Shown here in pieces: positions 14 through 37,785 of a stretch of 42,334 nucleotides of DNA. This DNA comes from Clostridia bacterium (GTDB taxonomy: Bacteria; Bacillota; Clostridia; Christensenellales; CAG-138), in the NCBI GenBank assembly GCA_017438865.1, contig JAFRUN010000003.1, forward strand, positions 1 through 42,334, read 5' to 3'. Below the pieces are notes generated by a model. It worked only from the letters and a program-made list of their open reading frames with translations, did no database searches and was not told where the DNA came from. Made by a program: the position numbers and the translations under genes. Every line of letters begins with the position of its first letter. Within the stretch, counting starts at the first letter, position 1.

Positions 14-90
14 GGGGATGTAGCTCAGCTGGTCAGAGCGCTGTGTTCACATCGCAGATGTCTAGGGTTCGAGCCCCTACATCCCCACCA
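14..90 (+). tRNA. tRNA-Val (anticodon CAC)
   Basis: Full cloverleaf with encoded CCA, 77 nt. The acceptor stem GGGGATG pairs with CATCCCC. The anticodon stem is CTGTG/CGCAG with loop TTCACAT, giving anticodon CAC for GUG codons. The T-arm is TAGGG-TTCGAGC-CCCTA. The 3' end of this gene, from the T-loop to CCA (70-90), is repeated exactly at 265-285, and its T-loop/stem is present in inverted form at 141-150. Confidence 0.95.
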
Positions 91-124
91 AATAAAAGCC
101 CCGCCGTGTGCGGGGCTTTTATTT
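91..124 (+). terminator. Rho-independent terminator of tRNA-Val
   Basis: The hairpin AAAAGCCCCGC / GCGGGGCTTTT starts just after the CCA and is followed by ATTT. Its 3' part and the next 15 nt (115-139) recur exactly at 527-551. Confidence 0.85.
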
Positions 125-140
125 GGTCCGTACAAACAGG

Positions 141-285
141 AGGGGCTCGACTGAACGCCCGCAAAACGACACAGTGCATCGTTTTGCAGTGAAGCGGGTT
201 TGCGGCAGGTGCGAACGTGCAGCGCGGAGCGCAAACGGAAGACGCCGATATCCATTGCCGCAAACGAGCCCCTACATCCCCACCA
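141..285 (+). repeat. tRNA-tail repeat element, copy at tRNA-Val, with duplicated tRNA 3' end
   Basis: Three parts are visible. (1) 141-150 is the exact reverse complement of the tRNA T-loop/stem at 69-78. (2) 148-264 is a 117-nt core: a left block of 62 nt containing a GCAAAACGA...TCGTTTTGC hairpin, then a 50-nt variable middle bounded by the 8-bp inverted repeat TTTGCGGC (199-206) and GCCGCAAA (257-264). (3) 265-285 is an exact 21-nt copy of the tRNA-Val 3' end including CCA. A second copy with the same core length lies behind tRNA-Ser (37575-37691); the left blocks share 56 of 62 bases. No credible ORF is present. Function unknown. Confidence 0.85.
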
Positions 286-526: not shown

Positions 527-579
527 GCTTTTATTTGGTCCGTACAAACAGAAGGGGCTCGAATGAGCGCCCCGCAAAC
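527..579 (+). repeat. Second, truncated start of the tRNA-tail repeat
   Basis: 527-551 is an exact 25-nt copy of 115-139 (end of the tRNA terminator plus spacer). It is followed by the inverted T-arm (AGGGGCTCGA, 553-562) and about 20 nt resembling the beginning of the 117-nt core, ending after GCAAAC. The rest of the core is missing. Confidence 0.75.
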
Positions 580-647: not shown

Positions 648-1595
648 ATGGAAGCGTTCAACACAGCATTTTCCCTCGGCGGCGCGACGCTGGCGTGGAA
701 CGGCATCGTTCTTGCCGTTTCGATCCTCGTCGCCGTCGTTGTTTCCGCCGTTCTCGTCAAAAAACGCGGCGCGTACAAGGACCTCGCGCTCGACGCCTGC
801 ATCGTCGGGATCCCGACGGGGCTTTTGGGCGCGCGCCTGTTTGCCGCGATCTCCGGAAAGGTCGCGTTCGCGTCGTTCTTCGATCTCACAAAGGCAGGGC
901 TCAATCTGCCGGGCGCGCTGCTGTTCGCGGGCGTCGGGATCGCCCTCTACGCGAGGATCAAAAAACTGTCCGTCGCCGAAACGTTCGATATCCTTGCGCC
1001 GGGCGCGTTCTTCGGGCTTGCCGTCGGACGCTGGTCGGACTTCTTCCTGTGCGACGGTCTCGGACCGGTCGCGGGCGCGAACGTGCCCAAATTCTTTCCG
1101 CTCGTCACCTTTACGCCGCAGTATTTTTCCGACGGCAAAACCGTCGCGTTCGCGGTATTCTTCCTTGATTTTCTGGTCTGCGCCGCGCTCGGCGTCACGG
1201 CGCTCCTGCTGAAAAACCGCAGGGCGGGGACCGTGTCCCGCGTTTCGATCGTGATCTATCTGTTCGCCGAATTCATCCTCGAATGGCTGCGCGACGGTTC
1301 GACAAGGCAGATCGTGTTCGGCGAGGTGCGGTTCAACCAGATCGTGCTGATGGCGATGCTGCTGTTCTTCGTGGGACTTTCGCTGTACCTTGCAAGACGC
1401 GCCGAAACGCCAGCGCCGGCATCCGGAGCCGAACCGGAAAAAGAACCGGAGGAGCCCGCAAAGCCGGAGGAGCCGGAGGAGCCCGCAAAGCCGGAGGAGC
1501 CGGAGGAACCCGCGGCGGAGGAAGCGCCCGAAGAGCCCGTTCCGGAGGAATCCGCGGAGGAAGCGGACGCGCCGGGGGAGGGCGAAGCGGAATGA
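648..1595 (+). CDS. Divergent Lgt-like membrane protein with Pro/Glu-rich tail
   Basis: 315 residues with about six or seven hydrophobic segments up to residue 250, arranged like prolipoprotein diacylglyceryl transferase (Lgt), the membrane enzyme that lipidates lipoprotein precursors. Residues 127-139 (GRWSDFFLCDGLG) line up with the Lgt signature GRxGNFxNxExxG but have Asp for the key Asn and Asp for the Glu. The late segment with LEWLRDGS (211-218) resembles the conserved region near the second essential Arg. Residues 254-315 form an acidic tail with the repeat KPEEPEEPA. ATG 648 was chosen because GGAGG lies at 636-640; the in-frame upstream codon at 615 has none. It overlaps the next gene, a lipoprotein, by ATGA. 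It may be a functionally altered Lgt paralogue; the family call is fairly sure, the activity is not. Confidence 0.75.
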   Translation: MEAFNTAFSLGGATLAWNGIVLAVSILVAVVVSAVLVKKRGAYKDLALDACIVGIPTGLLGARLFAAISGKVAFASFFDLTKAGLNLPGALLFAGVGIALYARIKKLSVAETFDILAPGAFFGLAVGRWSDFFLCDGLGPVAGANVPKFFPLVTFTPQYFSDGKTVAFAVFFLDFLVCAALGVTALLLKNRRAGTVSRVSIVIYLFAEFILEWLRDGSTRQIVFGEVRFNQIVLMAMLLFFVGLSLYLARRAETPAPASGAEPEKEPEEPAKPEEPEEPAKPEEPEEPAAEEAPEEPVPEESAEEADAPGEGEAE

Positions 1596-2104
1596 AGCGC
1601 CTGCCGTTTCTGCTGCTTGCGCTGTTGCTGCTTGCGTGCAGCTCGCAGGAAGCGAAGCTCATCTATCTTCCGGAGGCGACGCCGACGCCGCAGACGGAAT
1701 TCACGCCGTCGCCCGCGCCCGAGCCCGTGCCGATCGAGATCGCGCCGGTGCAGGGCGAGGGGTTTACGACCGATGCGAACGGCATTCCGATCCTGAACGA
1801 AAAGACGCACTATTTTGAATACTATCTGACGATCAAAAACCTGCGCATCTACGAGGAAAACGGAGAAACGCTGATCGACGCGGTCATCACGAACAATTAC
1901 CCGAAAAAACTCACAGGCGGGCTTCGGATCACGTTTTGGGCGGACAGTCTCGAATACGGCTACGGCGACTTCTACACGGCGGGCGGCGGGCTCGTGCTGT
2001 TCCCCGGCGAGAACCGCGTCTATGCCGACGTGCTGACGGAGGTCGATGTGCAGATGATGCCCTTCGAGATCACGGTCTCGACGCCCTTTGTGCCGGAACA
2101 GTAA
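1592..2104 (+). CDS. Small lipoprotein of unknown function
   Basis: 170 residues. A Lys/Arg start and Leu-rich segment end in a lipobox (LLLACSS, Cys about residue 16), so it is likely anchored to the outer face of the membrane. A Thr/Pro linker (ATPTPQTEFTPSP) precedes a compact domain of about 120 residues with beta-strand character, which I do not recognise. The start ATG overlaps the stop of the Lgt-like gene, so the two are translationally coupled. That a lipoprotein follows an Lgt-like enzyme may or may not be meaningful. The long reading frame upstream in this phase lies inside the previous gene and is not used. Confidence 0.75.
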   Translation: MKRLPFLLLALLLLACSSQEAKLIYLPEATPTPQTEFTPSPAPEPVPIEIAPVQGEGFTTDANGIPILNEKTHYFEYYLTIKNLRIYEENGETLIDAVITNNYPKKLTGGLRITFWADSLEYGYGDFYTAGGGLVLFPGENRVYADVLTEVDVQMMPFEITVSTPFVPEQ

Positions 2105-2122
2105 TAAAGAAAGGAAAACCGT

Positions 2123-3352
2123 ATGAACAACAGAGCATTGAAACAGATCTTTCTCGACACCGATTTTGTGCACCGCAGCGGAACGCCGGAGGAGCTGCGC
2201 GTTGCGGAATATCTGAAGGCGCAATGCGAAGCCCTCGGCGCAAAGGCATGGATCGAGCCGTTCGCCGTGCCGATGGCGGAGATCGAGGAAGCGCATGTGT
2301 ACGCCGACGGCAAGGAGATCCCGGCGAAGGGCTTTTTCTGCTGCGGCAGCGGCGAAGTCGAGGGCGAGCTTTACTATATGCCCGCTTTGGACAAGGTCTC
2401 CGTTGCGGGCGCAAAGGACAGGATCGTGCTGCTGGATACGGCGGGGATCGGCTTTTTCGGCTATCGGGATCTCATGAAAGCGGGCGCGAAGGGCATTCTG
2501 TTCCGGTGCGGCGATCTGCACAACGGCAACCGCGACATCGACGAACGCGATCTGAGAGCCGCGGTCGTCGGCGAGGAACGGAAGGTGCTCTGCGCCATGC
2601 TGCACGCGTCGACCGCCGTCGAACTCGTCAGAAACAAAACGAAGCGCGTGCGTATTTCGATCCGACAGCGCGAATACGAGGGCGAATCGCACAACGTCGT
2701 CGCCGAACTGCCGGGCAAAAACGGCGAGTGGATCACGCTGAGCGCGCATTACGACACGACCGCGCTGTCCCACGGCTCCTACGACAACATGACCGGCTGC
2801 GTCGGTATGCTCGGCGTGCTGGACGCGCTGAAGCGCAAGCCGCTGAACTACGGACTGCGCCTCGTTTTCTGCGGCAGCGAGGAACGCGGGCTTCTGGGCT
2901 CGAAGGCGTATGTTCACGATCATGAGACGGAGCTTGACAGGATCGCGCTGAACGTCAATCTCGACATGATCGGCACGCTCATGGGCAAGTTCATCGCGTG
3001 CGTGTCCGCCGAGGACAAGCTCGCAAGCTACATCGCCTACATGGCGGCGGAGCTCGGCTTCCCGGTGAGCGCAAAGACCGGCGTGTATTCCAGCGATTCC
3101 ACGCCGTTTGCGGACAAAGGCGTGCCCGCACTGTCGTTCGCGCGGATCGCGGGCGATGCCGTCGCGCCGATCCATTGCCGCTTCGACCGTCCCGACGTGC
3201 TTTCGATGGACCGTATGCAGGAGGACATCGCGTTTATCGCGGAGTTTGTACGCCGCATGGCAATGTCCTGCGTCTGCCCGGTCGGGCGCGACATTCCCGA
3301 TTCGGTCAAAGACGATCTCGACAAATACCTCTTCCGCAAGCGCAGAGAATAA
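2123..3352 (+). CDS. M28-family zinc aminopeptidase with PA-like insert
   Basis: 409 residues. The C-terminal half carries the metal ligands of M28 di-zinc peptidases: His209 (SAHYDT), Asp221 (SYDNMTG), the Glu pair 253-254 (GSEERG), Asp281 (NLDMIG) and His351 (PIHCRFD). Residues 75-190 look like the protease-associated (PA) domain often inserted in this family. No signal peptide is seen, so the enzyme is probably cytoplasmic or released in another way. GAAAGGAAAA precedes the ATG. It lies 18 nt behind the lipoprotein gene and probably belongs to the same transcript, which ends at the hairpin at 3359. Substrate preference cannot be read from the sequence. Confidence 0.9.
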   Translation: MNNRALKQIFLDTDFVHRSGTPEELRVAEYLKAQCEALGAKAWIEPFAVPMAEIEEAHVYADGKEIPAKGFFCCGSGEVEGELYYMPALDKVSVAGAKDRIVLLDTAGIGFFGYRDLMKAGAKGILFRCGDLHNGNRDIDERDLRAAVVGEERKVLCAMLHASTAVELVRNKTKRVRISIRQREYEGESHNVVAELPGKNGEWITLSAHYDTTALSHGSYDNMTGCVGMLGVLDALKRKPLNYGLRLVFCGSEERGLLGSKAYVHDHETELDRIALNVNLDMIGTLMGKFIACVSAEDKLASYIAYMAAELGFPVSAKTGVYSSDSTPFADKGVPALSFARIAGDAVAPIHCRFDRPDVLSMDRMQEDIAFIAEFVRRMAMSCVCPVGRDIPDSVKDDLDKYLFRKRRE

Positions 3353-3384
3353 AAAACCGGACCCCTTGCGGGGTCCTTTTTTTA
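3351..3384. terminator. Bidirectional terminator between M28 and U32 genes
   Basis: GGACCCC-TTGC-GGGGTCC (3359-3376) has an A-run before it and a T-run after it, so it can serve both converging transcripts. Confidence 0.85.
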
Positions 3385-4566
3385 TATCTTTTTCCGCAGC
3401 AGATCGCCGGGCGCAAGGGGAAGACCGGTTTTGATCTTCAGCACCGCCTTGACCTTGTTCGCGATCTCCACCGGCGCGCCGGATTCGTCCTCGATCTCGT
3501 CCGCGCGCAGCACGGCGCGGGAAAGCACGGGAGAGACGACTTCGAGCGCGTCGCCGCGCGCGAAACGGTTGCGCTGCTCGACCGTCGCGACGCCGTTTTC
3601 GCAGGCGAGCACAACGCCCGCAAACCGGTGCGTCTGCGTATAGACGCCGGCGTTTGAATGATCCTTCGGCAGCTCGCCGTGATAGAATCCGGTCGTGTAC
3701 GGGCGGTGCGACACGGTGAGAAGCTCCTTTTGCGCTTCCGCAACGGTCATCGTGCCGTCGAGTACGCGCCGGTAAGCGTTCGTCACGACCGCAACGTAGT
3801 ATTCCGTCTTCATGCGCCCTTCGATCTTCAGCGACGTCACGCCCGCGTCGACGAGCTCGTCCAGAAGTCCGACGCAGCAGAGGTCGCGGCTCGAAAGAAC
3901 GTAGCTCGCATTGCCCTCCTCGACGATCGGGAAGCTCTGGTTCGGGCGTGTTTCCTCGACCAGCGCGTAGCTCCAGCGGCACGGCTGCGCACAGTCGCCG
4001 CGGTTGCCGCTTCTGCCGAGGATCGCGGAGGAGAGGAGGCACCGTCCCGAATACGCCATGCACATCGCGCCGTGCACGAACGCTTCAAGTTCGAGATCGT
4101 CTGGAATGCGCCGTTTCAGGTCCCGAATCTGTTCGATCGTCATCTCGCGCGCGAGCACGATGCGCTTTGCGCCGAGCCCGTACCACGTCATGGCGGACGC
4201 GTGGTTGGTGCAGCTTGCCTGCGTGGAAACGTGCAGCTCGAGCTGCGGACACGCCCTGTGCATGGTCGCGAGCACGCCGAGATCGGACACGATCGCCGCG
4301 TCGGCGCCGCAGTTCTTCAATTCATTCGCATAGGCGGGGAGCAGGTCGATCTCGTCCGGGTAGGCGAGCGCGTTGACCGTCACATACAGCCGCTTTCCTT
4401 TTGCGTGGACGGCGTTCGCCGCGTCCGCGATATCGTCGAACGTGAACCCCGCGCTTTTTGCGCGAAGCTGCAGAAGCGGACCGCCGAGATACACCGCGTC
4501 CGCACCGAAGCGCAGAGCCGCCGAAAGCGCCTCCTTCGATCCGACCGGCGCCAGAAGTTCCGTCAT
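3382..4566 (-). CDS. U32-family protein (TrhP/YrrO-like tRNA hydroxylation factor)
   Basis: 394 residues. The N-terminal TIM-barrel-like part begins TELLAPVGSKEAL. The U32 signature follows, with HGAMCMAYSGRC (165-176) and GNRGDCAQPCR (187-197), giving four conserved Cys (169, 176, 192, 196) likely to hold an Fe-S cluster. A C-terminal small beta-domain starts about residue 320. Members include TrhP (prephenate-dependent 5-hydroxyuridine formation in tRNA) and RlhA (23S rRNA hydroxylation); the length fits the single-unit YrrO/TrhP type, but substrate assignment is inference. The family was once called collagenase-like peptidases. ATG 4566 is preceded by GGAGG on the minus strand. Confidence 0.88.
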   Translation of the reverse strand: MTELLAPVGSKEALSAALRFGADAVYLGGPLLQLRAKSAGFTFDDIADAANAVHAKGKRLYVTVNALAYPDEIDLLPAYANELKNCGADAAIVSDLGVLATMHRACPQLELHVSTQASCTNHASAMTWYGLGAKRIVLAREMTIEQIRDLKRRIPDDLELEAFVHGAMCMAYSGRCLLSSAILGRSGNRGDCAQPCRWSYALVEETRPNQSFPIVEEGNASYVLSSRDLCCVGLLDELVDAGVTSLKIEGRMKTEYYVAVVTNAYRRVLDGTMTVAEAQKELLTVSHRPYTTGFYHGELPKDHSNAGVYTQTHRFAGVVLACENGVATVEQRNRFARGDALEVVSPVLSRAVLRADEIEDESGAPVEIANKVKAVLKIKTGLPLAPGDLLRKKI

Positions 4567-4593
4567 ATTGCCTCCGAAAAATCCGTTTTGTTC

Positions 4594-4622
4594 AGTATAT
4601 CAACCCGAACGTCCTGCGTCAA
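4594..4622 (-). promoter_or_regulatory. Sigma-A promoter of the U32 gene
   Basis: On the minus strand TTGACG (4622-4617), 17-nt spacer, TATACT (4599-4594). It lies 28 nt upstream of the start codon. Confidence 0.7.
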
Positions 4623-4693
4623 CCGCCGACCGCAGGCGGCGCGGAGGATGAATTGCGCTTCGCGCGTGAATTGCGGCTTCGCCGCATGAATCG
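4623..4693. repeat. Small palindromic repeat cluster between divergent genes
   Basis: A hairpin CCGCC/GGCGG (4623-4639) is followed by direct units starting TGAATTGCG: 4649-4666 (core GCGCTTCGCGC), 4667-4686 (core GCGGCTTCGCCGC) and a short TGAATCG at 4687. Each unit contains its own dyad. It resembles REP/BIME-type intergenic repeats in form. No coding potential. Confidence 0.6.
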
Positions 4694-4698
4694 TCCTA

Positions 4699-4727
4699 TG
4701 GACATCAAACGATCGATGTGCTACAAT
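4699..4727 (+). promoter_or_regulatory. Sigma-A promoter of the nfo-zinc transporter operon
   Basis: TGGACA (4699-4704), 17-nt spacer, TACAAT (4722-4727), 41 nt before the nfo start codon. I saw no clear Zur-type palindrome around it. Confidence 0.7.
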
Positions 4728-4768
4728 AGAGCATCATAAAATGTCTTTTTGTGGGCAAAAGGGGAATT

Positions 4769-5602
4769 ATGCTGCACATCGGCTGTCATCTGTCGCCGTC
4801 CGACGGACTTCTCAATATGGCAAAAACCGCGTCGGCGCTCGGCGCGGACACGTTTCAGTTCTTTTCGCGCAATCCGAGAGGCAGCAGGGCGAAGCCGCTC
4901 GATCAGAGCGACGCGGACGCCATGCTTGCGTACTTGAACGAAAACCGTTTCGCGCCGGTGCTCGTGCACGCGCCGTACACGCTGAACCCGTGCGCCGAAA
5001 AGCCGGAGACCGCGGCGTTTGCGGAGCTCGTCATGCGCGACGACCTTGCCCGCTGCACCGCGATGAAAACGCCGTTCTACAATTTCCATCCCGGTTCGCA
5101 CGTCGGACAGGGCGAAGCGGCCGGCATCGAAAAGACGGCGGCGCTTCTGAACCGCATTCTGGACGACACGACCGATACGACCGTTCTGATCGAAACAATG
5201 TCCGCGCAGGGCAGCGAGATCGGCGGCACGTTCGAGTCCGTCCGCGCGATCATCGACGGCGTCGAACGGAGCGACCGCGTCGGCGTATGCCTCGACACCT
5301 GTCACGTCTTTCAGGCGGGCTATGATATCGTGAACGATCTGGACGGCGTGCTGACCGCGTTCGACCGCGTGATCGGGCTCGACCGGCTGAAGTTCGTCCA
5401 CCTGAACGACGCCTTGTTCGGCTTCGGCCTGCACAGGGACCGCCACGCGCCGATCGGCAGGGGCTGCATCGGACTCGACGCGATGCGCCGCATCGTGAAC
5501 CATCCCGCGCTTTGCGCGCTGCCGTTCTGCCTCGAAACGCCGCACGACCGGCTTTCCGAATACGCCGATGAAATTTCGCTTTGCAGGGGGCTTTCGGAAT
5601 GA
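4769..5602 (+). CDS. nfo: Endonuclease IV (zinc-dependent AP endonuclease)
   Basis: 277 residues, the usual length. The enzyme cuts 5' of abasic sites in base excision repair and carries three zinc ions. All nine expected ligand positions can be seen: His67, His107 (NFHPGSH), Glu142 (LIETM), Asp176 and His179 (LDTCH), His211 (KFVHLND), Asp224 and His226 (DRHAPIG), Glu256 (CLETPH). ATG 4769 has AAAGGGG upstream; a GTG six codons earlier is possible but less well placed. It is the first gene of a five-gene string with ATGA overlaps or abutting starts that continues into a zinc-type ABC transporter, so a zinc enzyme is co-expressed with zinc uptake. Confidence 0.93.
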   Translation: MLHIGCHLSPSDGLLNMAKTASALGADTFQFFSRNPRGSRAKPLDQSDADAMLAYLNENRFAPVLVHAPYTLNPCAEKPETAAFAELVMRDDLARCTAMKTPFYNFHPGSHVGQGEAAGIEKTAALLNRILDDTTDTTVLIETMSAQGSEIGGTFESVRAIIDGVERSDRVGVCLDTCHVFQAGYDIVNDLDGVLTAFDRVIGLDRLKFVHLNDALFGFGLHRDRHAPIGRGCIGLDAMRRIVNHPALCALPFCLETPHDRLSEYADEISLCRGLSE

Positions 5603-6768
5603 ATCCGCATCTTGTTTCCGTTTTTCCCTGCGAAACGTACGCGCCCGAAACGTGCGAGGCGGCGCTTTCCGCCGTATTGGAACCGCTCGGCGGGCTCGAC
5701 TGGGTTCGTCCCGGCATGCGCGTCGGGATCAAGGCGAACCTCGTTGCGGGCGCAAAGCCCGAAAAGGCGGTCACCACGCATCCGGCGCTGCTTGCGGCGC
5801 TGACGCGGCTTCTCATTGCGCGCGGCGCGTCCGTGGTGATCGGCGACAGTCCCGGCAACCTTTTTAACGCTGCGGTGCTGAACCGCGTCTATGCGCTCTC
5901 CGGTCTTTCCGAGGCGGAGGAGGCGGGCGCGGAGCTGAACCGCGACTTCTCCGAAAAGGACGCGTTCTTTGCCGACGCGGTGCAGGCGAAGCAGTTCACT
6001 TATACCGGCTGGCTCGACGGCTGCGACGCGATCGTCAACTTCTGCAAACTGAAATCGCACGGCATGATGTCGCTGTCCTGCGCGGCGAAGAACCTGTTCG
6101 GCACGATCCCCGGCACGATGAAGCCGGAGTACCATTACCGCTTCCCGAACCCGAACGAGTTCGCGGACATGATCGTCGATCTCGACGAGTATTTCAAGCC
6201 GGTCCTGCACATCTGCGACGCGGTGCTCGCCATGGAGGGCAACGGCCCCACGCAGGGAAAGCCGAAGCACGTCGGCGCGCTGCTCGCCTCGCACGATCCG
6301 CACCGGCTGGACGTGCTCGCGGCGACGCTGATCGGGCTCGATCCCGCGGAGGTCCCGACGCTCGCGGCGGCGGCGCGGCGGAACCTTGCGCCGGCGTCGG
6401 TCGACGGCATCGAGACCGCGGGCGACTGGAAACAATTTGTGCAGACGGATTTCGAGCGGATCGAAAACCGCAACAGTCTCCTGTTCGTGGGCGGCGACAA
6501 CATTTTCGGCAGGACGGTGCGCGGCGCGATGAACCTGTGCCTCGTTTCGCGTCCGAAGGTAAAGAAACGCGCGTGCGTCGGCTGCGGCAGATGCCGCGAC
6601 GTGTGCCCGGCGCATACGATCGCGATCAAAAACAAAAAGGCGGTCATCAACCGCAGAAACTGCATCAAATGCTTCTGCTGTCAGGAGTTCTGCCCGGTCG
6701 GCGCGATGCGCGTGCACCGTTCGCCGGTCGCAAAGATCCTGACGCACGGAAGGGAGAGATCGAAATGA
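5599..6768 (+). CDS. DUF362 protein with two 4Fe-4S ferredoxin motifs
   Basis: 389 residues from ATG 5599, which overlaps the nfo stop codon. The DUF362 domain covers about residues 20-310 and includes GIKANLV, GDSPG and KLKSHGMMSLSCAAKNLFG. Two cluster motifs of ferredoxin type follow near the C-terminus: CVGCGRCRDVCP and CIKCFCCQEFCP, each able to hold one 4Fe-4S cluster. Cytoplasmic; probably an electron carrier or redox enzyme. The family has no settled function in bacteria. Its position inside a zinc operon might suggest a metal-related role, but that is a guess. Confidence 0.88.
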   Translation: MNPHLVSVFPCETYAPETCEAALSAVLEPLGGLDWVRPGMRVGIKANLVAGAKPEKAVTTHPALLAALTRLLIARGASVVIGDSPGNLFNAAVLNRVYALSGLSEAEEAGAELNRDFSEKDAFFADAVQAKQFTYTGWLDGCDAIVNFCKLKSHGMMSLSCAAKNLFGTIPGTMKPEYHYRFPNPNEFADMIVDLDEYFKPVLHICDAVLAMEGNGPTQGKPKHVGALLASHDPHRLDVLAATLIGLDPAEVPTLAAAARRNLAPASVDGIETAGDWKQFVQTDFERIENRNSLLFVGGDNIFGRTVRGAMNLCLVSRPKVKKRACVGCGRCRDVCPAHTIAIKNKKAVINRRNCIKCFCCQEFCPVGAMRVHRSPVAKILTHGRERSK

Positions 6769-7688
6769 AACGAATGCTTGCGCTGACGCTCTGCGCGCTG
6801 CTTGTCTTTTCGGCGCTTGCCTGCGGTGCGCCGGAAACGGACGCGTCGAAGCCGACCGTCGTCGTCACGATCTTTCCGCAGTACGATTTCATCCGTGCGA
6901 TCGCGGGCGACCGCGTGAACCTCGTCATGCTCGCAAAACCCGGCGGCGAGGTGCACGGCTACGATCCGAGCTTATCCGAAATGAATCTGATCCTTGCCTC
7001 CGATCTCTTCGTGTACGTCGGCGGCGAGACCGACCGCTGGGCAAAGGACCTGCTCGAAACGAACGGAAAAGGCCTGAACGCGATCGCGCTTGTCGATCTT
7101 GTCGACGCCGTTGACGAGGAACTTGCGCCCGGCATGCAGGGCGAGGCGGAGGAAGCGCCCGCAAAGGACGAGCACGTCTGGACGAGTCCCCGAAACTGCA
7201 TCCGCATCGTCGAACGGCTTTGCGGCGCGCTGTGCGCGCTTCTGCCGGACGAAGCCGATGCGATGAGGGCGAACGCCGCGGCGTACATTTCGCAGCTTAC
7301 GGAGCTCGACAGCGCGTTTCACGACGCGGTGAACGGCGGCAAACGCAATACCGTCGTGTTCGCGGAGCGCTTTCCGTTCCGCTATCTTTGCGACGAGCTC
7401 GGGCTCCGCTATTACGCCGCGCTGCCGGGCTGCTCGAGCAACGAGGAGGTCAGCTTATCGACCGTTTCGTTTCTGATCGACCGCGTGAAGGCGGAGGATC
7501 TTCCCGGCGTGTTCACGATCGAGTTCTCGGACGGACGTATCGCGAAGACGATTGCGGACGCAACCGGCTGCGAGATCTTAGAGCTGCATTCCTGTCACAA
7601 CGTATCGAAAGCGGACCTTGACGCGGGCGTGACCGTGCTCGATCTGATGCGGCGGAACCTCCAATCCCTGAAAAAGGCGGTGAATTGA
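6765..7688 (+). CDS. znuA: Zinc/manganese ABC transporter substrate-binding lipoprotein (ZnuA family)
   Basis: 307 residues. Signal segment with lipobox SALAC (Cys20), so membrane-anchored outside the cell. Cluster A-I metal-binding fold: VVTIFPQYDFIRAIAG, then His64 (EVHGYDPS) and His137 (DEHVWTSP). The usual third His (HxxFxY) is replaced in AERFPFRYL (200-208), where Glu201 is a candidate ligand, and the acidic TIEFSDGR (251-258) is the probable fourth site. The histidine-rich loop of many zinc binders is reduced to an acidic stretch (126-136). ATGA overlap with the gene before. Zinc rather than manganese is inferred from the operon and the family. Confidence 0.85.
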   Translation: MKRMLALTLCALLVFSALACGAPETDASKPTVVVTIFPQYDFIRAIAGDRVNLVMLAKPGGEVHGYDPSLSEMNLILASDLFVYVGGETDRWAKDLLETNGKGLNAIALVDLVDAVDEELAPGMQGEAEEAPAKDEHVWTSPRNCIRIVERLCGALCALLPDEADAMRANAAAYISQLTELDSAFHDAVNGGKRNTVVFAERFPFRYLCDELGLRYYAALPGCSSNEEVSLSTVSFLIDRVKAEDLPGVFTIEFSDGRIAKTIADATGCEILELHSCHNVSKADLDAGVTVLDLMRRNLQSLKKAVN

Positions 7689-8393
7689 ATGGCGTTGATC
7701 ACGTTTGAAGACGTCGGGCTGTCCTACGGCGGCGACAACGTCGCGCACGATGTGCGCTTTTCCGTGAACGCGGGCGAGTTCTGGGGCATCGTAGGCGAGA
7801 ACGGCTCCGGCAAATCCACGCTGATGAAGGCGCTTCTCGGGCTGATCCCGTGCGCAAGCGGACGGATCGTGATGGGCGAGGGACTGAAGCCGAACGAGAT
7901 CGGCTATCTGCCGCAGCAGAGCATGATCCAGCGCGATTTTCCGGCGTCGGTCGAAGAAGTCGTGCTCTCCGGCACGATCGGCTACCGCGGACTGAAACCG
8001 TTTTACGGACGACGTGAACGCGCGCTTGCGGCGAAAAACATGGAGATGCTCGGGCTTCTGCCGCTCCGTAAGCACAGCTATCAGGAGCTTTCCGGCGGAC
8101 AGCAGCAGCGGGTGCTGCTTGCGCGTGCGCTCTGCGCCACCAAGAAGTGCCTCGTGCTCGACGAGCCGACCACCGGACTCGATCCGGTCGTGACGGCGGA
8201 GTTCTACCGGCTGCTGCACACGATCAACGAAAGCGGCATGACGATCATCATGGTCTCGCACGACGTCGAGGAGGCGGTGCGAAGCTGCTCCATGATCCTG
8301 CATCTGTCCTGCCATCCGCTGTTCATCGGCACGGCGCAGGCGTACAAAAACAGTCCGGTCGGACGGAAATACTTAAAGGAGACGACGGTATGA
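7689..8393 (+). CDS. znuC: Metal ABC transporter ATP-binding protein (ZnuC family)
   Basis: 234 residues. Walker A GENGSGKS (36-43), signature LSGGQ (134-138), Walker B CLVLDEP (154-160) and the switch His in MVSHDVEEA are all intact. The start codon follows the znuA stop codon directly. It energises uptake by the adjacent permease and binding protein. The Q-loop segment IGYLPQQS is typical of this family. Confidence 0.9.
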   Translation: MALITFEDVGLSYGGDNVAHDVRFSVNAGEFWGIVGENGSGKSTLMKALLGLIPCASGRIVMGEGLKPNEIGYLPQQSMIQRDFPASVEEVVLSGTIGYRGLKPFYGRRERALAAKNMEMLGLLPLRKHSYQELSGGQQQRVLLARALCATKKCLVLDEPTTGLDPVVTAEFYRLLHTINESGMTIIMVSHDVEEAVRSCSMILHLSCHPLFIGTAQAYKNSPVGRKYLKETTV

Positions 8394-9295
8394 GCGCGAT
8401 TGCAGCCATCTTTCAGAATATGCCGGAGATCATGCTCCGCGCGATCGTCGTCGGCACGCTCGTGTCGCTCTGCGCAAGTCTTCTGGGCGTCACGCTCGTT
8501 CTGAAGCGCTATTCCATGATCGGCGACGGACTAAGCCACGTCGGCTTCGGCGCGCTTGCGATCGCGACCGTTCTGCACGTCGGCAGCGCGTCGACGGCGG
8601 TCTCGCTGCCGATCGTCACGGCGAGCGCGTTCATTCTCATGTGGCTCACGGAAAAGCGGCGTATGCAGGGCGACGCTGCGATCGCGCTGCTTTCTACCGG
8701 CGCGATCGCGGTCGGAACGCTTCTGTTCCGGTTTTCCGACAACCAGTATCAGGACATCTGCAACTCGCTGTTCGGCACGGCGTCGATGGCGCTTCTGACC
8801 GATTCCGATATGTGGATCACCGTCGGCGTTTCCGCCGTCGTGCTGGTGCTGTTCGTGCTGTTCTACACGCGCATCTTCAGCGTCACGTTCGACCGGACCT
8901 TCGCGAAGGCGACCGGCGTGCGCGTCGGCGCGTACTCGATGATGCTTGCGGCGCTGACCGCCGTGACGGTCGTGATCGGCATGAAGATGGTCGGCGCGAT
9001 CATGGTGTCGGGGCTCATCATCTTTCCGGCGCTGTCCGCGATGCGCGTAACGAAGCGGTTCCGCTCGGTCATGATCGTATCCGCCGTGCTGTCGCTCGTC
9101 TGCTTCTTTTCGGGATTCTTCCTGTCGCTTCTGATCGAGGCGCAGCCCGGTCCCGCGATCATCGCCGTCCACGTCGTTTCGTTCCTCGTCTGCGCGCTGA
9201 CCGGCTTTTTGAGAACGCGCATCCGCGCGCGCAAAAACCGCGGCATCGTCGTCGAGCCGCCGTGCAGGGCGGGGGAATCCGGTCCGGAACGATAA
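8390..9295 (+). CDS. znuB: Metal ABC transporter permease (ZnuB family)
   Basis: 301 residues with eight or nine hydrophobic helices, as usual for ABC-3 family permeases. Recognisable family segments are LVLKRYSMIGDGLSHVGFG (about 36-54) and GAIMVSGLIIFPALSA (about 202-217). The ATG overlaps the znuC stop codon (ATGA). The C-terminal 20 residues are charged and cytoplasmic. I see no terminator behind the gene; the next promoter begins 8 nt downstream. Confidence 0.9.
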   Translation: MSAIAAIFQNMPEIMLRAIVVGTLVSLCASLLGVTLVLKRYSMIGDGLSHVGFGALAIATVLHVGSASTAVSLPIVTASAFILMWLTEKRRMQGDAAIALLSTGAIAVGTLLFRFSDNQYQDICNSLFGTASMALLTDSDMWITVGVSAVVLVLFVLFYTRIFSVTFDRTFAKATGVRVGAYSMMLAALTAVTVVIGMKMVGAIMVSGLIIFPALSAMRVTKRFRSVMIVSAVLSLVCFFSGFFLSLLIEAQPGPAIIAVHVVSFLVCALTGFLRTRIRARKNRGIVVEPPCRAGESGPER

Positions 9296-9302
9296 TTTCC
9301 TG

Positions 9303-9331
9303 TTGTACTTTTGAGATCCGCGTGCTATAAT
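9303..9331 (+). promoter_or_regulatory. Sigma-A promoter of mscL
   Basis: TTGTAC (9303-9308), 17-nt spacer, TATAAT (9326-9331), 32 nt before the start codon, with AAGGGGG as ribosome-binding site. Confidence 0.8.
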
Positions 9332-9363
9332 ATATAATGTAATCTGCAAAGGGGGTTCAACGT

Positions 9364-9846
9364 ATGAAGAAATTCTTCTCCGAATTCAAGGCGTTTGCTC
9401 TGAAGGGCAATGTGGTCGACATGGCGGTCGGCGTCGTCATCGGCGGCGCGTTCGGCGCGATCGTGACCTCGCTCATCAACGACATCATCATGCCGCTGCT
9501 GGGACTCATCATCAAGGTCAACTTCAGCAACTGGGGCGTCGTGCTCGGCGACAACCCGGACGGTCTTTCGCCCGCGGCGGCGGCCGAAGCGGGACTGTCG
9601 GTCTTCCATTACGGCAAGTTCATCTCCGCGATCATCTACTTCGTTCTGATCGCGCTTGCGATCTTCCTTGTCGTGCGCGCGCTCCGCAAGGCGGAGGAAA
9701 AGGCGAAGGAGCTCAAGAAAAAAGAAGAGCCCGCGCCCGAACCCGCAAAGCAGCCGCGTCTCTGCCCGTACTGCCGTCAGGAAGTCGCCGACGACGCAAC
9801 CCGCTGCCCGCACTGCACCAGCGAGCTTCCGCCGGTCGAAGAATAA
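9364..9846 (+). CDS. mscL: Large-conductance mechanosensitive channel with C-terminal zinc ribbon
   Basis: 160 residues. The MscL part (1-110) has both helices and the pore motif GNVVDMAVGVVIGGAFG (15-31), then a charged helix at 108-122. MscL normally ends here. This protein continues through a Glu/Pro linker into a small zinc-ribbon-like segment with Cys134, Cys137 (CPYC), Cys148 and Cys151 (CPHC). The channel releases osmolytes when the membrane is stretched; the ribbon lies in the cytoplasm, five per channel if it is pentameric, and might bind a partner or sense metal or redox state (inference). Own promoter and terminator. Confidence 0.92.
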   Translation: MKKFFSEFKAFALKGNVVDMAVGVVIGGAFGAIVTSLINDIIMPLLGLIIKVNFSNWGVVLGDNPDGLSPAAAAEAGLSVFHYGKFISAIIYFVLIALAIFLVVRALRKAEEKAKELKKKEEPAPEPAKQPRLCPYCRQEVADDATRCPHCTSELPPVEE

Positions 9847-9860
9847 CCGAATGCGATCCG

Positions 9861-9891
9861 AAGGCCGCAGTTTTCGCTGCGGTCTTTTTTC
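9861..9891 (+). terminator. Terminator of mscL
   Basis: AAGGCCGCAG-TTTTCG-CTGCGGTCTT followed by T-rich sequence. Confidence 0.8.
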
Positions 9892-9932
9892 GTCCGAAAT
9901 GCATCCTTTCCGTGAACGTTGCGCGATATTTC

Positions 9933-9961
9933 TTGCATTGCCGCGTCCGGTTTGCTATACT
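9933..9961 (+). promoter_or_regulatory. Sigma-A promoter of the yigZ-type operon
   Basis: TTGCAT (9933-9938), 17-nt spacer, TATACT (9956-9961). Transcription from here excludes the in-frame start codon further upstream at 9919. Confidence 0.75.
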
Positions 9962-9999
9962 ATGATAGAAAAATTGTGCGGAAAGGCGGAGGAACCGGC

Positions 10000-10635
10000 G
10001 TGGAGACGCAGCGTGCGTACCGGACCGTTCAAAACGCGTCCGAAACCGAATATGTGATCTCCCGGTCGCGCTTTATCGGGCGCTGTTTTCCCGTGACGGA
10101 CGAGGCGGAAGCGCTTTCGATCCTCGAACGCATCCGAAAACAGCACTGGGACGCGACGCACAACTGCTTTGCCTACCGGCTGCGCACCGGCGCGGCGCGG
10201 TATTCCGACGACGGCGAGCCGCAGGGCACCGCGGGACTGCCGATGATGGAGGTGCTGAAAAAGCGCGGTCTGTACGATCTTCTGGTCGTGAGCACACGCT
10301 ATTTCGGCGGGATCCTGCTCGGCGCGGGCGGGCTTGTGCGCGCGTACACGCGTTCGGCGTCCGACGCGGTCGAAGCCGCCGGGCTCGTCTCCATGGAGCC
10401 GTGCGCGCTCTTTTCCGTATCCGTCGCATATCCGTACCGCAACGCGGCGTGGAGCGTGTTCGAGCGCTTCGGCACGATCGCGCATACGGACTACGGCGAG
10501 ACGATCACGGTGTCGTTCCGCTGCCGCACATCCGATGCGAACGCGTTTCTGACCGCGCTTTCGGACCGTACCGAAGCGCGTGTGACCGCAAAAATGACCG
10601 GCGCGGGATTCTATCCCTTTCCCGTGACCGAATAA
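10000..10635 (+). CDS. YigZ/IMPACT family protein (UPF0029)
   Basis: 211 residues from GTG 10000, placed 7 nt behind a good AGGCGGAGG. The N-terminal IMPACT domain shows [39 protein letters not shown] and [17 protein letters not shown], which are the family hallmarks. A C-terminal ferredoxin-like domain (DUF1949) covers about 140-205. Members are cytoplasmic; E. coli YigZ and yeast Yih1/IMPACT are linked to translation control and Gcn2 binding, but the bacterial function is not settled. First gene of an operon with the next two (gaps of 16 and 4 nt). Confidence 0.88.
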
Positions 10636-10651
10636 TTCTCCGGAGGGACCG

Positions 10652-13192
10652 ATGAAGCGGATCGTGTATTTCATGCTTGCCGTTCTGCTGCTCGCGGGCG
10701 CGCTTCTGCCCGCGGGCGTGTTTGCCGACGGCGATCATCCGATCACGCTCACGATCACCTGCGAAAACGTCCCGGAGCTCGAGGGCGACGGCACGATCCC
10801 GGACCTGCTTTTCACGATCCGCAACGAATCCGAAGCGGACTATACGCTCATCAACGCCAGACTCACCAGGGGCTACGAAGACCGCGAGATGCTGCTCACC
10901 GAGTTCATCACCGTGCCGGGCGGCGAGTCGAAGGAATTTCATCTGACCGACGTGCCGGTCTCCGAAAACCAGCTCAACAGGGACGTGACGTACAAGCTCT
11001 CCTGGGAGGAGAACGAGACCGTCGTCGATCCCGAGACCGACGTCTCGACGATCGTCACGCACGAGCGCGAAACGACGGCGTCGTTCCGGATCGAGAAGTT
11101 CATCGTGCCGGAGCTGTCCGTTTCCGCAAGCTGCGATCAGGTCAGCGTGCGCTATGACGAGCCGTTTACGGTCGTCTATACGATCCGCAACGACACCGAG
11201 TTCGATATGTCCGGCCTGAAGCTCGTCGATCCCGAGCAGAGCATGCTTTCGATCCCACTGCCCGATTCGGATCTTACGGCGGGGCAGACGCTCACCGTGC
11301 CGGTCGAGTATAAGATGGGCGCGCTCGATATGTCGTTTGCGCCGCAGCTCGAATACATCGCGCGCCGCCGCGAGATGACCGCCGTTGCCGACAGGAAGAT
11401 CACGGTCGAATCGGTTTTCGTTGATCTCACGATCTCAGCGGAGGAGCGTCCCGCCGCGGCGGAAGGCACGACGTTCGCGATCACGGTGCGCAACAACGGC
11501 AACCGCACGGTCACGAAGATCCGTGTGTATGACGAGATCAACACGCTCATCGGGGAAGAGTTCGACCTCGGTCCCGAGGAATTCCGCACGCTTCTGTATA
11601 CGGTGCAGCCGGCGGTCTCGTCGGATCGCGCGCGCACCGTCCGCTTCCATCTGTCGGCGATCGACTATCTGAACGAAACGATCCGTCTCGCCGATCCCAA
11701 CACCTACACCGTCGTACCGTACGTTTCGCCCGATTCCGTCCGGCTCGGGCTTTCGGTCGTGCTGCAGTCGCCGTACTACGACGAAAACGGCAAGCTGTGC
11801 GCGTCGATCCAGTTCAATATCCGCAACAACGGCGACGTCAAGATCTTCAACGCGGTCCTTTCGGAGCTTACGCTGTTCGGCAAGGTCGTTTCCTACCCGG
11901 AGCTTCGCCGCGGCGACACATATTTCACGCAGATCTACCAGCTCGACGGCGTGACCGAGCTGAAGTTCCGTCTCGACGCCTATAACCCCGCGGGAGAGCT
12001 GTGCAGCTCCGACGTCGTCCGGCTCGATCTGAGCCGCCTCAGGGAGCTTGCCGACCGCAAGCACGATCCGGTGCTGGTCTATACGACCAATCCGTATCTG
12101 CAGGACCTCGATACGCGCTACAGCGGCGTTCTGCGCGTGATCGTCGTCATTGCGCTGATCGTCGCCGCCGCCTGCGGCGTGTTCTGCATCGTGCTGTTCG
12201 CTGTCGAGATGCGCATCAAAAGCAAGCTGCCCGCCGAGTTCGAGGAGGATATGGAGCGCGTCATGCGGTCCACCAAGCGCCGCACCGAGAAGCAGCTTTT
12301 CTCCGACGCGCCGACCGAGCAGTTCGGCTATACCGCCCCGATCAAGCTGCGCAACTACGGCGAGCTGACCGAGGAGGAGGCGAAGGCGCGCCGCGAACTC
12401 TATCGGAAAGGACTTGAGGAGAATCTGCGGAAGGAGGGCGCGAGACCGGAACGTCCCGCGATCCCGCCTTCAAAACGCGATCCCGCGGACGAAACCCGGA
12501 TCACCGTGATGCGCCGCACACCGGACGCGCCGCCGAAACCGGCGCAGACCGGCGAATTCCGTCCGCCGAAGCAGGAGACGGCGCAGACCGGCGAGTTCCG
12601 TCCGCCGAAGCAGGAGACGGCGCAGACCGGCGAATTCCGTCCGCCGAAGCAGGAGACGGCGCCGGTGAAACCCGTGACGCAGCGCACGCCCGCCGTGACG
12701 CGTACCGTCATGCGGACGGACGGATCGACAAAGGCGATCCCGCTGCCGAAGGCGGCGCCCGCGATCGTTCCGGCCGTTCTTCCGAAGGCGGCGCCGGAAC
12801 CGGTCGAACCGCCGATTCCGCTTGAAACGCCGGAGCCGCCGGCCGAACGCGAGCCGCAGCATGAATTCGTGCCCGAGGCATACGTCGCGCCGATCATGAA
12901 GGCGGTGTTCGATCCGGTCGCAGAACCGGAGCCGGTCGTTGAACCGGAGCCGGAAGCGGAACCTTTGGAACGCATCGAACCGGAGCCCGCCGCCGAGCCG
13001 AAGCCGGAAGCGGAACCTTTGGAACGCATCGAACCGGAACCGGTCGCAGAGCCGGAGCCGGAAGCGGAACCTTTGGAACGCATTGAACCGGAACCCGCGC
13101 CTGCCGTGCGGGGACCGGTGCGCATCCTTGAAAAAGCCATTCCGGCAAGACGGCCGATCGTGCCGCTGCCGGTCAAACGAATGAACGGATAA
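10652..13192 (+). CDS. Large repeat-tailed membrane protein with Ig/CARDB-like outer domains
   Basis: 846 residues. Signal peptide (1-25), then about 460 residues outside the cell with several repeats of an all-beta fold recalling CARDB or S-layer-type Ig domains (TIRNES, TIRNDT, TVRNNG and NIRNNG recur in LxFxIRNNG-like strands). One membrane helix lies at about 493-518. The cytoplasmic part of about 325 residues is charged, then proline-rich. It contains three exact 13-residue repeats ([13 protein letters not shown], 631-669) and three 18-residue repeats (core [13 protein letters not shown], 767-815). The DNA repeats have 39-bp and 54-bp periods, so copy number can vary. Function unknown; a surface scaffold or signalling protein is possible. 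Confidence 0.7.
12542..12658 (+). repeat. Three tandem 39-bp repeats inside the large membrane protein gene
   Basis: Units start at 12542, 12581 and 12620 and are identical except for an A/G change in the EF codon pair of the middle unit. They encode [13 protein letters not shown] three times. Confidence 0.95.
12950..13102 (+). repeat. Three tandem 54-bp repeats inside the large membrane protein gene
   Basis: Units start at 12950, 13004 and 13058. Each encodes [13 protein letters not shown] plus a variable five-residue link. The first 34 bases of each unit are nearly identical. Confidence 0.93.
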
Positions 13193-13196
13193 ACGT

Positions 13197-14126
13197 ATGG
13201 ATTGGTACTGGATCGTTCTCATCTGTTTCGGCGCGCTCGCGCTGATCGCGCTTGCCGTCGGGTATCTGACGTTCCGCTACGCGTTTGTGGCGGATCGCCG
13301 CGTCATCGGAAAGATCTTCCGCGACCGGGAAAAGGATCCCTCGCCGCTTGTGCGTATGCGCTTTGCGACGAAGGCGTACATGGACGCGCTCGAACGCGAG
13401 GACTGGACGCAGACCGCTTCGGACGGCACGAAGCTCGCGGCATGGTTTTTCCCGCACGGCGGCACGAACAAGGTCGCCGTCATCTGTCACGGCTGGCGCA
13501 GTCTGCCGTGGTGGGATTTCGGCAGGGCGTTCGACATCGTCTACAACGCCGGATACGCGGTGCTGGCGGTCTGTCAGCGCGCGCAGGGCGACAGCGAGGG
13601 GCGGTACATGACCTACGGCGCAAAGGAGTCCGGGGACCTTCTCGGCTGGATCGAACGGCTCTGCGACCGGTTCGGCGGCGACGTGCGCATCGCGATCATG
13701 GGCGTTTCGATGGGCGGCGCGACGGTGCTGTGCGCCACCGGCAGGGAGCTTCCGGACGCGGTGAAATGCGCGGTTTCCGACTGCTCGTTCACATCCGCGG
13801 AGGATATGTTCCGCACGGCGAGCAGGGGCGGTCTGATCGTTGCGCGGCGGATCGAGGAGATCCTCATGCGGCTGTTCGCGCACGTCAGGTATGCGGACGC
13901 GTCCCCGATCGACGCGGTGAAACGCTCGAAAACGCCGACGCTGTTTGTGCACGGCGCGGCGGACGATTTCATCCCGCCGTCCATGATGAGCGAGCTGTAC
14001 GACGCCTGCGCGGCGCCGGAAAAGGCGAAATGGCTTTCGCCCGGGGCGCTTCACGCCGAAGCCGCGATGACGAACCCCGACGAATACGCCGAAGCGGTCC
14101 TGCCGTTTCTCGCGAAGCACCTTTGA
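13197..14126 (+). CDS. Membrane-anchored alpha/beta hydrolase
   Basis: 309 residues. An N-terminal hydrophobic helix (5-28) probably anchors it to the membrane. The hydrolase fold carries the oxyanion region VICHGW (95-100), nucleophile Ser171 in GVSMGG, acidic residue 256 or 257 (GAADDF) and His286 (GALHAEA). It resembles the YqkD/BAAT-like group often annotated as acyl-peptide or ester hydrolases. Substrate unknown. Starts 4 nt behind the large repeat protein, so the two are co-expressed and both membrane-bound. Confidence 0.88.
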   Translation: MDWYWIVLICFGALALIALAVGYLTFRYAFVADRRVIGKIFRDREKDPSPLVRMRFATKAYMDALEREDWTQTASDGTKLAAWFFPHGGTNKVAVICHGWRSLPWWDFGRAFDIVYNAGYAVLAVCQRAQGDSEGRYMTYGAKESGDLLGWIERLCDRFGGDVRIAIMGVSMGGATVLCATGRELPDAVKCAVSDCSFTSAEDMFRTASRGGLIVARRIEEILMRLFAHVRYADASPIDAVKRSKTPTLFVHGAADDFIPPSMMSELYDACAAPEKAKWLSPGALHAEAAMTNPDEYAEAVLPFLAKHL

Positions 14127-14134
14127 GAAAGGAC

Positions 14135-14162
14135 GCTCCCCGATCGCTCGGGGAGCTTTTTT
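14135..14162 (+). terminator. Terminator of the hydrolase operon
   Basis: GCTCCCCGA-TCGC-TCGGGGAGC followed by six T. It lies directly beyond the stop codon of the converging holin gene. Confidence 0.85.
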
Positions 14163-14353: not shown

Positions 14354-14367
14354 TCCGTTCTCCTTTC

Positions 14368-15292: not shown

Positions 15293-15321
15293 GTTTCACT
15301 CCTTTCCATCCCGACGCCTTT

Positions 15322-15350: not shown

Positions 15351-15381
15351 CCGGAAAAAAGTCCGATTTCGTGCCGGAAGG

Positions 15382-37430: not shown

Positions 37431-37522
37431 GCAGAGATGGCTGAGCTTGGTCTAAGGCGCACGACTGGAAATCGTGTATACCAGGAATGGTATCGAGGGT
37501 TCGAATCCCTCTCTCTGCGCCA
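37431..37522 (+). tRNA. tRNA-Ser (anticodon GGA)
   Basis: 92 nt with long variable arm (ATACC/GGTAT) and encoded CCA. Acceptor GCAGAGA/TCTCTGC, anticodon stem CACGA/TCGTG, loop CTGGAAA, anticodon GGA. Its 3' end is duplicated at 37695-37712. Confidence 0.96.
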
Positions 37523-37558
37523 CGAAAACAACCGCCCGATCCGGGCGGTTGTTTTCAT
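37523..37558 (+). terminator. Terminator of tRNA-Ser
   Basis: AAAACAACCGCCCG-AT-CCGGGCGGTTGTTTT (37525-37555) followed by CATTT. An almost identical copy is at 37713-37748. Confidence 0.88.
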
Positions 37559-37565
37559 TTTGGAT

Positions 37566-37712
37566 GAGGGGATTCGACTGAGCGACCGCAAAACGACGCA
37601 GTGCGTCGTTTTGCAGCGAAGCGGCTTTGCGGCAGGGCGGAGTGCACAGCATGGAATGCGGGCATGACAGCCCGATATCCACCGCCGCAAAGGGATCCCT
37701 CTCTCTGCGCCA
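37566..37712 (+). repeat. tRNA-tail repeat element, copy at tRNA-Ser, with duplicated tRNA 3' end
   Basis: 37566-37577 is the reverse complement of the tRNA-Ser T-loop/stem (37501-37511) with one extra G. The 117-nt core is 37575-37691; its hairpin GCAAAACGACGCA-G-TGCGTCGTTTTGC is perfect over 13 bp, and the 8-bp inverted repeat TTTGCGGC/GCCGCAAA bounds a 50-nt middle (37634-37683). After the core the tRNA-Ser 3' end with CCA is repeated (37695-37712). The left block matches the tRNA-Val copy in 56 of 62 bases; the middle is much less conserved except for its last ten bases (CCGATATCCA). No gene. Confidence 0.87.
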
Positions 37713-37785
37713 CGAAAACAACCGCCCGATCCGGGCGGCTGTTTTCATTTTGGATGAGTGGATTCGACTGAGCGACCGCAAAACG
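37695..37785 (+). repeat. 91-bp direct repeat of 37505-37595
   Basis: Covers tRNA-Ser 3' end, terminator, spacer, inverted T-arm and the first 21 nt of the core. It differs from 37505-37595 at only two positions (37739 and 37759). The period is 190 bp, so the locus looks like one and a half tandem units. Confidence 0.93.

Follow-up and report, generated by a model that had tools for sequence, protein, structure and literature searches.

A gene-less, folded unit with ends fitted to tRNA and tmRNA genes in Clostridia: a candidate family of mobile DNA

Two tRNA genes in the window, i.e. the whole 42,334-nt stretch analysed here (contig JAFRUN010000003.1 of a Clostridia bacterium from the gut), are each followed by a short unit in which no gene was found and whose ends are copies of part of the adjoining tRNA, one inverted and one direct. 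That this unit is fitted to tRNA 3′ ends, and that such sites occur both occupied and empty, is well supported. As far as our searches reach, the element is real, widespread in scattered lineages, and undescribed among the literature searched. The reading that we hold to be somewhat better than even is that it is a gene-less, site-specific insertion element of tRNA and tmRNA 3′ ends, mobile DNA rather than a working RNA.

The unit and its parts

An earlier note on this DNA had described two cores of 117 nt, at 148-264 and 37575-37691. Sequence comparison bears out this length for both. The left 62 nt of the Val and Ser cores are identical at 56 positions, as had been reported, and all 117 at 89 positions, ungapped; within one mononucleotide-shuffled window, the Val half found no ungapped 62-nt match better than 31, and hence the similarity lies far beyond chance. 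Also present in both cores are the 8-bp inverted repeat TTTGCGGC/GCCGCAAA, with a spacer of exactly 50 nt, and the central hairpin GCAAAACGA..TCGTTTTGC. ARAGORN and Rfam agree with the note on the neighbouring genes, tRNA-Val(cac) at 14-90 and tRNA-Ser(gga) at 37431-37522. The boundaries drawn at that time are too narrow, the 117-nt cores being the middle of a larger unit. Three features had been missed. The left core edge (GGGGCTCGA in Val, GGGATTCGA in Ser) is an inverted copy of the T-loop and T-stem of its own tRNA; the nucleotides to the right of the cores (265-285 and 37692-37712) are direct copies of nt 56-76 of that tRNA, exact for Val and with three changes for Ser; and the gap between tRNA and core is filled by a hairpin.

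The unit thus runs in the order tRNA CCA end, P0 hairpin, inverted T-loop/T-stem copy (antiT), folded body and direct tRNA copy (the far copy), the last extending from tRNA position 56/57 and mostly to CCA. P0, between CCA and antiT, has up to 19 bp, and in 13 of 27 rows its palindrome extends over the CCA of the tRNA, which is matched by a TGG. Units measure ∼175-200 bp in the genus, and the portion recognised elsewhere in the phylum ∼90-180 nt. The same genome holds two further copies, one behind tRNA-Leu(taa) and one behind tRNA-Leu(gag) on contig C62. Including the Leu(taa) copy (GGGATTTGA), the left edge is the reverse complement of the adjoining tRNA's T-loop and T-stem in three copies; the far copy reaches CCA in Val and Ser and is degenerate before CCA in Leu(taa). 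The features of the window are as follows.

14..90, + strand: tRNA-Val(cac), target gene (ARAGORN, Rfam)
70..90, + strand: left direct repeat, tRNA-Val nt 56-76 (CGAGCCCCTACATCCCCACCA), an exact 21-nt repeat of 265-285
88..126, + strand: P0 hairpin, terminator-like by eye, starting at the tRNA's own CCA and ending in TGG (fold)
142..150, + strand: antiT, inverted T-loop/T-stem copy, 5′ strand of P1 (10 of 11 positions)
151..194, + strand: P2 hairpin with tandem G.A between covarying pairs (alignment, covariation)
198..265, + strand: P3 stem (198-206 with 257-265), enclosing P4, P5 and the CGATATCCA motif at 246-254 (alignment, covariation)
265..285, + strand: right direct repeat, duplicating tRNA-Val nt 56-76; the 3′ strand of P1 is made of its first bases
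532..578, + strand: remnant of a second unit, comprising P0 tail, antiT and start of P2 (91% over 46 nt)
37431..37522, + strand: tRNA-Ser(gga), second target gene (ARAGORN, Rfam)
37502..37522, + strand: left direct repeat, tRNA-Ser nt 56-76 (sequence)
37524..37556, + strand: P0 hairpin of the Ser copy (fold)
37569..37577, + strand: inverted T-loop/T-stem copy GGGATTCGA of the Ser unit
37578..37691, + strand: folded body of the Ser unit, P2, P3, P4 and P5
37692..37712, + strand: right direct repeat, tRNA-Ser 3′ end with three changes (sequence)
37713..37785, + strand: second, truncated Ser unit, comprising P0 copy, linker, antiT and start of P2 (97% over 32 nt)

Other features were also noticed. 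A 6S RNA gene occupies 21726-21906 of the window, flanked by tRNA-Val(gac) and tRNA-Gln(ctg). A second repeat family (CGTCGTCGCAAGC...GCTTGCGACGACTTTTTT) stands right after the CCA of tRNAs or far copies, at 286-531 of the window and at loci L058, L011, L049, L149 and L155 (the last two by reading); it has a terminator-like hairpin of its own, and other genomes of the genus contain partial matches to it (69-88%). A third, interspersed repeat (GAGGATTCCCCTTGAGGGGAAGCTCC...) lies downstream of the Leu(taa) copy, at ∼4031-4081 of G000:C62, and recurs in many genomes of the genus.

Distribution and position at tRNA genes

To count relatives of the element we used three covariance models, R1 (E <= 0.01), R2 (E <= 1e-4) and R3 (E <= 1e-5). 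With R1, they were found in 21 of the genus's 23 genomes, with only weak matches in one, G015, and in 71 of the 103 genomes of the family, representing 15 of 26 genera, with 0 to 20 matches per genome. With R2, 55 of 396 sampled genomes of the order had matches (22 of 142 genera). R3 detected the element in 10 of 391 sampled genomes of the class, six of them from the order to which the window belongs and four from a single other family, and in 8 of 398 sampled genomes of the phylum, in five families outside the class; because R3 misses the window's own copies at this threshold, the class and phylum counts are lower bounds. An earlier figure of 19 of 23 genus genomes, from a sequence query, was discarded in favour of the R1 count, as an unrelated repeat and a sigma-factor gene within the query had raised it artificially.

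A 21-base pattern matched 26 stretches in genome_contigs. Twenty were from metagenome-assembled genomes labelled Clostridia or Clostridiales, many of them from ruminant forestomachs, and one was from Christensenella sp. UBA3792; five, from unrelated phyla and with no tRNA called there, look like chance matches. No match was seen in viral contigs with two patterns or in phages with one query, and the sole match of that same query in plasmids was weak (Rhizobium, covering 57%). Rfam scans of the window and 24 other loci returned no family for the element above the gathering threshold, and no paper describing such an element was found among the open-licence literature, which does not imply absence from print elsewhere.

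The note had proposed a search for many copies directly behind tRNA genes, and its expectation was largely borne out. We placed 110 matches (42 in genus and family, 24 in the order, 24 in the class and 20 in the phylum) and tallied their upstream neighbours on the same strand. A tRNA or tmRNA ends within 150 nt upstream in 77 cases and at 151-500 nt in 12 more; six matches lie at a contig start, and for 15 no such gene was called within 500 nt. For six of these 15 (L092, L104, L226, L280, L300 and L304), ARAGORN overlooked a T-arm and CCA end lying immediately upstream, that of L300 being assigned to a tmRNA 3′ end through a weak Rfam match; among the remainder are copies without a recognisable adjoining tRNA. 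The only tRNA information in the covariance models is that of the T-arm copies in P1. G1037, a single-contig genome, has five matches, at tmRNA, Ser(tga), His(gtg), Leu(gag) and Gly(tcc), the last separated from its tRNA by an open reading frame resembling a transposase. Three copies (L306, L318 and L329) stand between two tRNA genes on the same strand. Those copies that are situated within tRNA operons are probably transcribed. The linker of L306 is just 22 nt, with no evident P0 hairpin.

The ends were also assessed without any model, by looking behind the tRNAs of the fetched loci for an antiT of 9 nt with at most one mismatch together with a far copy of 14 nt with at most two. Matching ends were found behind 104 of 273 distinct tRNAs, compared to 0 of 273 when another tRNA served as reference. 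As the loci were fetched because of the element, 104/273 is no frequency, and the control is what counts. It is thereby shown that units recognised by their ends fit the local tRNA and not another. The targets comprise 28 kinds of tRNA, plus tmRNA. AntiT is exact in 90 of the 104 units; for the far copy, the first nucleotide is nt 56 or 57 in 89 units and the last is exactly A76 in 73 (numbered back from A76). Because the far copy duplicates the tRNA from nt 56/57 onward, the tRNA is left intact and its 3′ end is present a second time beyond the body; this second 3′ end is the displaced target fragment by which islands are recognised. Between these repeats lie only P0, antiT and a body of 48-236 nt (104 units), with neither an integrase gene nor the multigene length of an island.

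Fold, site occupancy and relatedness of bodies

The fold was derived from 17 of the 20 complete genus copies, two with a different P2 and one near-duplicate being omitted. These 17 align nearly gap-free, and 15 of them measure 135 or 136 nt. In the consensus, P1 is formed by antiT with the direct copy, P2 contains tandem G.A between covarying pairs, and P3 encloses P4 and P5. Compensatory changes, in which both sides differ and pairing is kept, occur in 25 of the 44 base pairs within the genus; the stems vary as the note had proposed as support, and the fold covaries as that of a structured RNA should. Paired cells make up 96.8%, compared to 83.6% in shuffles and 35-46% with partners slid. Four of five pair measures were reached by 0 of 500 shuffles, and the fifth, the number of pair types, showed no excess (278/500). 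Folding z-scores of the window copies are -3.84 and -4.45 as DNA; as RNA, with slightly different boundaries, they are -2.42 and -3.11, with -1.75 for the Leu(taa) copy.

Departures from this plan were also seen. L046, L053 and L059 (in G014, G022 and G005) have an extra ∼53-57 nt of similar sequence in the P3-P5 region. The Leu(gag) copies L038, L042 and L050 (in G018, G004 and G021) have a quite different hairpin in place of P2, and the total length in L042 and L050 is still 135-136 nt.

Filled and empty sites were compared at two tRNAs. Among 21 tRNA-Val(cac) loci, which do not include the window's own filled site, 15 are empty, 4 are filled, 1 holds a remnant and 1 lies at a contig edge. 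The 20 tRNA-Leu(taa) loci comprise 8 that are plainly filled, 7 that are empty and 5 that are interrupted, partial or at contig ends. Flanks are conserved in some pairs of filled and empty genomes; those of G001 (empty) and G011 (filled), for instance, are 95.7% identical over 1242 nt on the downstream side and 88% over 276 nt on the upstream side. At tRNA-Val, the upstream flanks of G022 (filled) and G018 are 75% identical over 808 nt. In G022, the terminator past the far copy matches the one directly after the tRNA in G018 at 30 of 34 columns, compared to 21 of 36 for P0. The analogous comparison of G014 with G018 at Leu gives 39 of 49 columns for the terminator and 24 of 50 for P0; orthology of these loci is not established, and the comparison is weak because a similar terminator recurs behind another tRNA (Val of G020). 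The Val comparison of G000 with G016 (25/43) does not decide. As the far-copy terminator resembles the empty site more than P0 does, the unit probably brings its own P0 along and displaces the old 3′ end in the manner of an island, although this rests on little. A site in G009 (Leu) seemingly keeps P0 and the tail of a far copy with the body lost, consistent with imprecise loss.

We asked how closely bodies follow their tRNA locus, using 23 bodies of the genus (4 of 27 rows, truncated or odd, were dropped) and leaving gaps uncounted. Bodies at the same tRNA in different genomes have a mean identity of 0.865, which 441 of 5000 label shuffles attain; the mean is 0.857 (2651 of 5000) for different tRNAs in the same genome and 0.856 where neither is shared. 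The nearest body is at the same tRNA in 12 of 23 cases, with a shuffle mean of 4.9 (19 of 5000 reach it); with gaps counted, the number is 8 of 23 (731 of 5000). The highest identity between bodies at different tRNAs is 93.5%, for Gly(tcc) and Ser(gct) of G075. These means and nearest-body counts indicate that bodies follow the locus only loosely, the sequences bearing a trace of inheritance with the locus plus the marks of much exchange, with ends fitting the local tRNA. Units may insert with target-fitted ends, or resident units may exchange bodies. The empty sites, the body identities and the nearest-body counts would all be compatible with resident elements among which bodies are exchanged and which are lost at times.

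Units also repeat in tandem, many at ∼150-260 nt spacing, and several arrays end in a truncated copy. Open frames separate the copies at four loci (L234-L237): a sigma-70 region 2 protein at L235, a treble-clef repeat protein at L236, an SdpI/DUF1648 protein at L237, and frames of up to 163 codons within ∼1.46 kb at L234. Other tandem units follow each other without room for a gene. In G048 (L269, G048:C19, ∼700-15970), ∼15 kb appears to split the element's far copy of the tRNA-Gly(ccc) 3′ end, as if this far copy, instead of the tRNA, had been the landing site. The 15-kb stretch carries a large serine recombinase, a phage capsid protein, a D5-type primase and a type I methylase. Reading by eye the open reading frames listed for 20 stretches with copies (family, order, class and phylum), we noticed no shared recombinase; nor was a recombinase, excision product or circle seen.

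Competing explanations and known systems

Where the coding strand is the RNA, an excess of G-U over A-C is expected in its stems. The acceptor and T stems of tRNAs at the fetched loci (183 distinct tRNAs) show this clearly, with G-U and A-C at 118:8. For the element stems, the ratios are 12:10 in alignment A2, 18:30 in A4, which is partly misaligned, and 7:1 in A5; Fisher P values against tRNA are 1.4e-5, 2.8e-14 and 0.44, A5 being indistinguishable from tRNA. The + strand folds better in 7 of 17 and 10 of 20 cases, the − strand folding as well. From these base counts and predicted folds, the window's type leans towards DNA, and the short type may be either. The conserved tandem G.A would mark the + strand as the relevant one, if only one matters. 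A low content of G-U as such was rejected as proof of DNA: it is 2.3-3.7% in the elements, but 4.6% in tRNA stems, 3.3% in P0 and 12.2% in 6S. A hammerhead-like or group I intron identity was likewise put aside, in that the core bases which these ribozymes need seem by eye not to fit, and Rfam reports neither in the stretches scanned.

The earlier note had left the choice between a non-autonomous mobile element at tRNA 3′ ends and a structured RNA. We find the former the better guess, on the direct repeats of the tRNA end and the empty sites, movement itself being inferred. The RNA alternative would have the element made by read-through of tRNA transcripts, P1 keeping the antisense T-arm off the tRNA or sensing tRNA 3′ ends. 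We judge it unlikely, though it would account for the strongly covarying fold, for the tandem G.A conserved between covarying pairs, for the tRNA or tmRNA lying within 500 nt upstream on the same strand in 89 of the 110 placed matches, for the copies inside tRNA operons and for the G-U excess of A5. It sits poorly with the terminator-like hairpin that parts tRNA from body in the genus, with related species that lack the element at the same tRNA, and with the absence of an Rfam family in the stretches scanned; and two of the three alignments have no G-U excess of the kind seen in tRNA, while the + strand is not the more stable.

Covariation and constancy of length also bear on the notion that the units are scars of larger tRNA-targeted islands, in which the far copy would be an old attR and the body a remnant of the island end. 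A near-constant length and a covarying fold across the genus are not decay, the inverted copy is left unexplained, and open reading frames listed near phylum-level copies resemble, by reading, ordinary chromosomal genes. We regard this origin as improbable, even with the ∼15 kb of serine recombinase and phage-like genes between copies in G048, and even though a 20-bp direct repeat of a tmRNA 3′ end and insertion in the middle of the T-loop are what islands leave (PMC3146451, PMC4383910). We give just as little credence to a neutral origin, in which template-switching during replication beside the naturally palindromic T-arm would create and perfect palindromes and slippage would yield the tandem units. 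The spacing of the tandem units and the inclusion of the tRNA's CCA in the P0 palindrome would suit such a process, as would the predominance of double changes among changed pairs (single-side fractions of 0.17 and 0.08, versus 0.71 in 6S, at unequal divergence). However, conserved mismatches and loops stay uncorrected, and the same body is picked up by a single model behind many tRNAs and across many genera, indicating that the body is homologous rather than made anew each time.

If the element is mobile DNA, as we favour, a recombinase provided in trans would insert it at the T-loop, around positions 55-57, in the way of tRNA-targeted islands. In one strand, antiT is able to pair with the direct copy as P1 and close a body with hairpins P2 and P3-P5; this folded strand, with P1 rebuilding part of the tRNA 3′ end as a duplex, would be the form recognised. 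The ends might come to match through target duplication followed by hairpin-templated correction, or through the exchange of bodies among long-resident elements. A bolder version, which we consider doubtful, would make the family an undescribed, phylum-wide class of mobile DNA that has no gene, has its ends rewritten for each target and has one body fitting almost any tRNA; the fold would be an attC-like site carrying the tRNA 3′ end as a duplex, the tRNA gene would act as attI, and genes would be gathered between copies in places.

Whichever explanation holds, units of this family are devoid of genes and fall short of the 2-kb limit set by an island finder, and they occur at at least 28 kinds of tRNA plus tmRNA with locally fitted ends. 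Movement with fitted ends would call for an enzyme whose insertion of DNA copies the target in both orientations, and this would be a reaction of a new kind. Should the family be immobile, scattered lineages of the phylum have for some reason preserved a single-strand fold next to their tRNA genes.

tRNA genes are classical landing sites of mobile DNA. The known riders of tRNA genes are multigene islands with an integrase, as set out in PMC4383910; there, Islander defines islands by a regenerated target and a displaced fragment, tests for an integrase gene and rejects candidates of <2 kb. According to PMC3146451, the ssrA islands of Dehalococcoides have a 20-bp repeat, insertion in the middle of the T-loop, tandem islands and a serine recombinase, and PMC3119063 presents an archaeal prophage end with a 22-nt tRNA duplication, an ordinary case. 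The element resembles tRNA and tmRNA islands (PMC4383910, PMC3146451) in the regenerated target, the displaced 3′ fragment at the far end, the direct repeat of ∼20 bp, its probable insertion in the T-loop and tandem units. It differs from them in that no gene was found in its typical unit, which is <∼200 bp and has an inverted target copy at the left end, and in that it has a covarying fold and is one family at many different tRNAs.

The attC sites of integrons are palindromic and fold as a single strand with their outer arms pairing, and cassette arrays consist of a gene plus a folded site. The element is likewise palindromic, with a single-strand fold and pairing outer arms, and has open frames between copies at four loci, but it lies at tRNA genes, its ends follow the tRNA and many tandem units have no gene between them. 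An integron-like reading draws on few cases of a gene between copies. MITEs and REP/PATE sequences are short, non-coding, palindromic and multicopy, as the element is; its ends, unlike theirs, are not fixed but are copies of each target, its direct repeat is ∼20-21 nt from one defined tRNA position, and the 0 to 20 matches per genome in the family set it further apart. Casposons share with it inverted ends and direct repeats at tRNA 3′ ends, whereas the element's unit has no gene and its inverted end derives from the target. That the element is categorically new is our judgement, one that a paper elsewhere could overturn, and it rests on the feature that sets the element off from these systems: ends derived from the target in both orientations.
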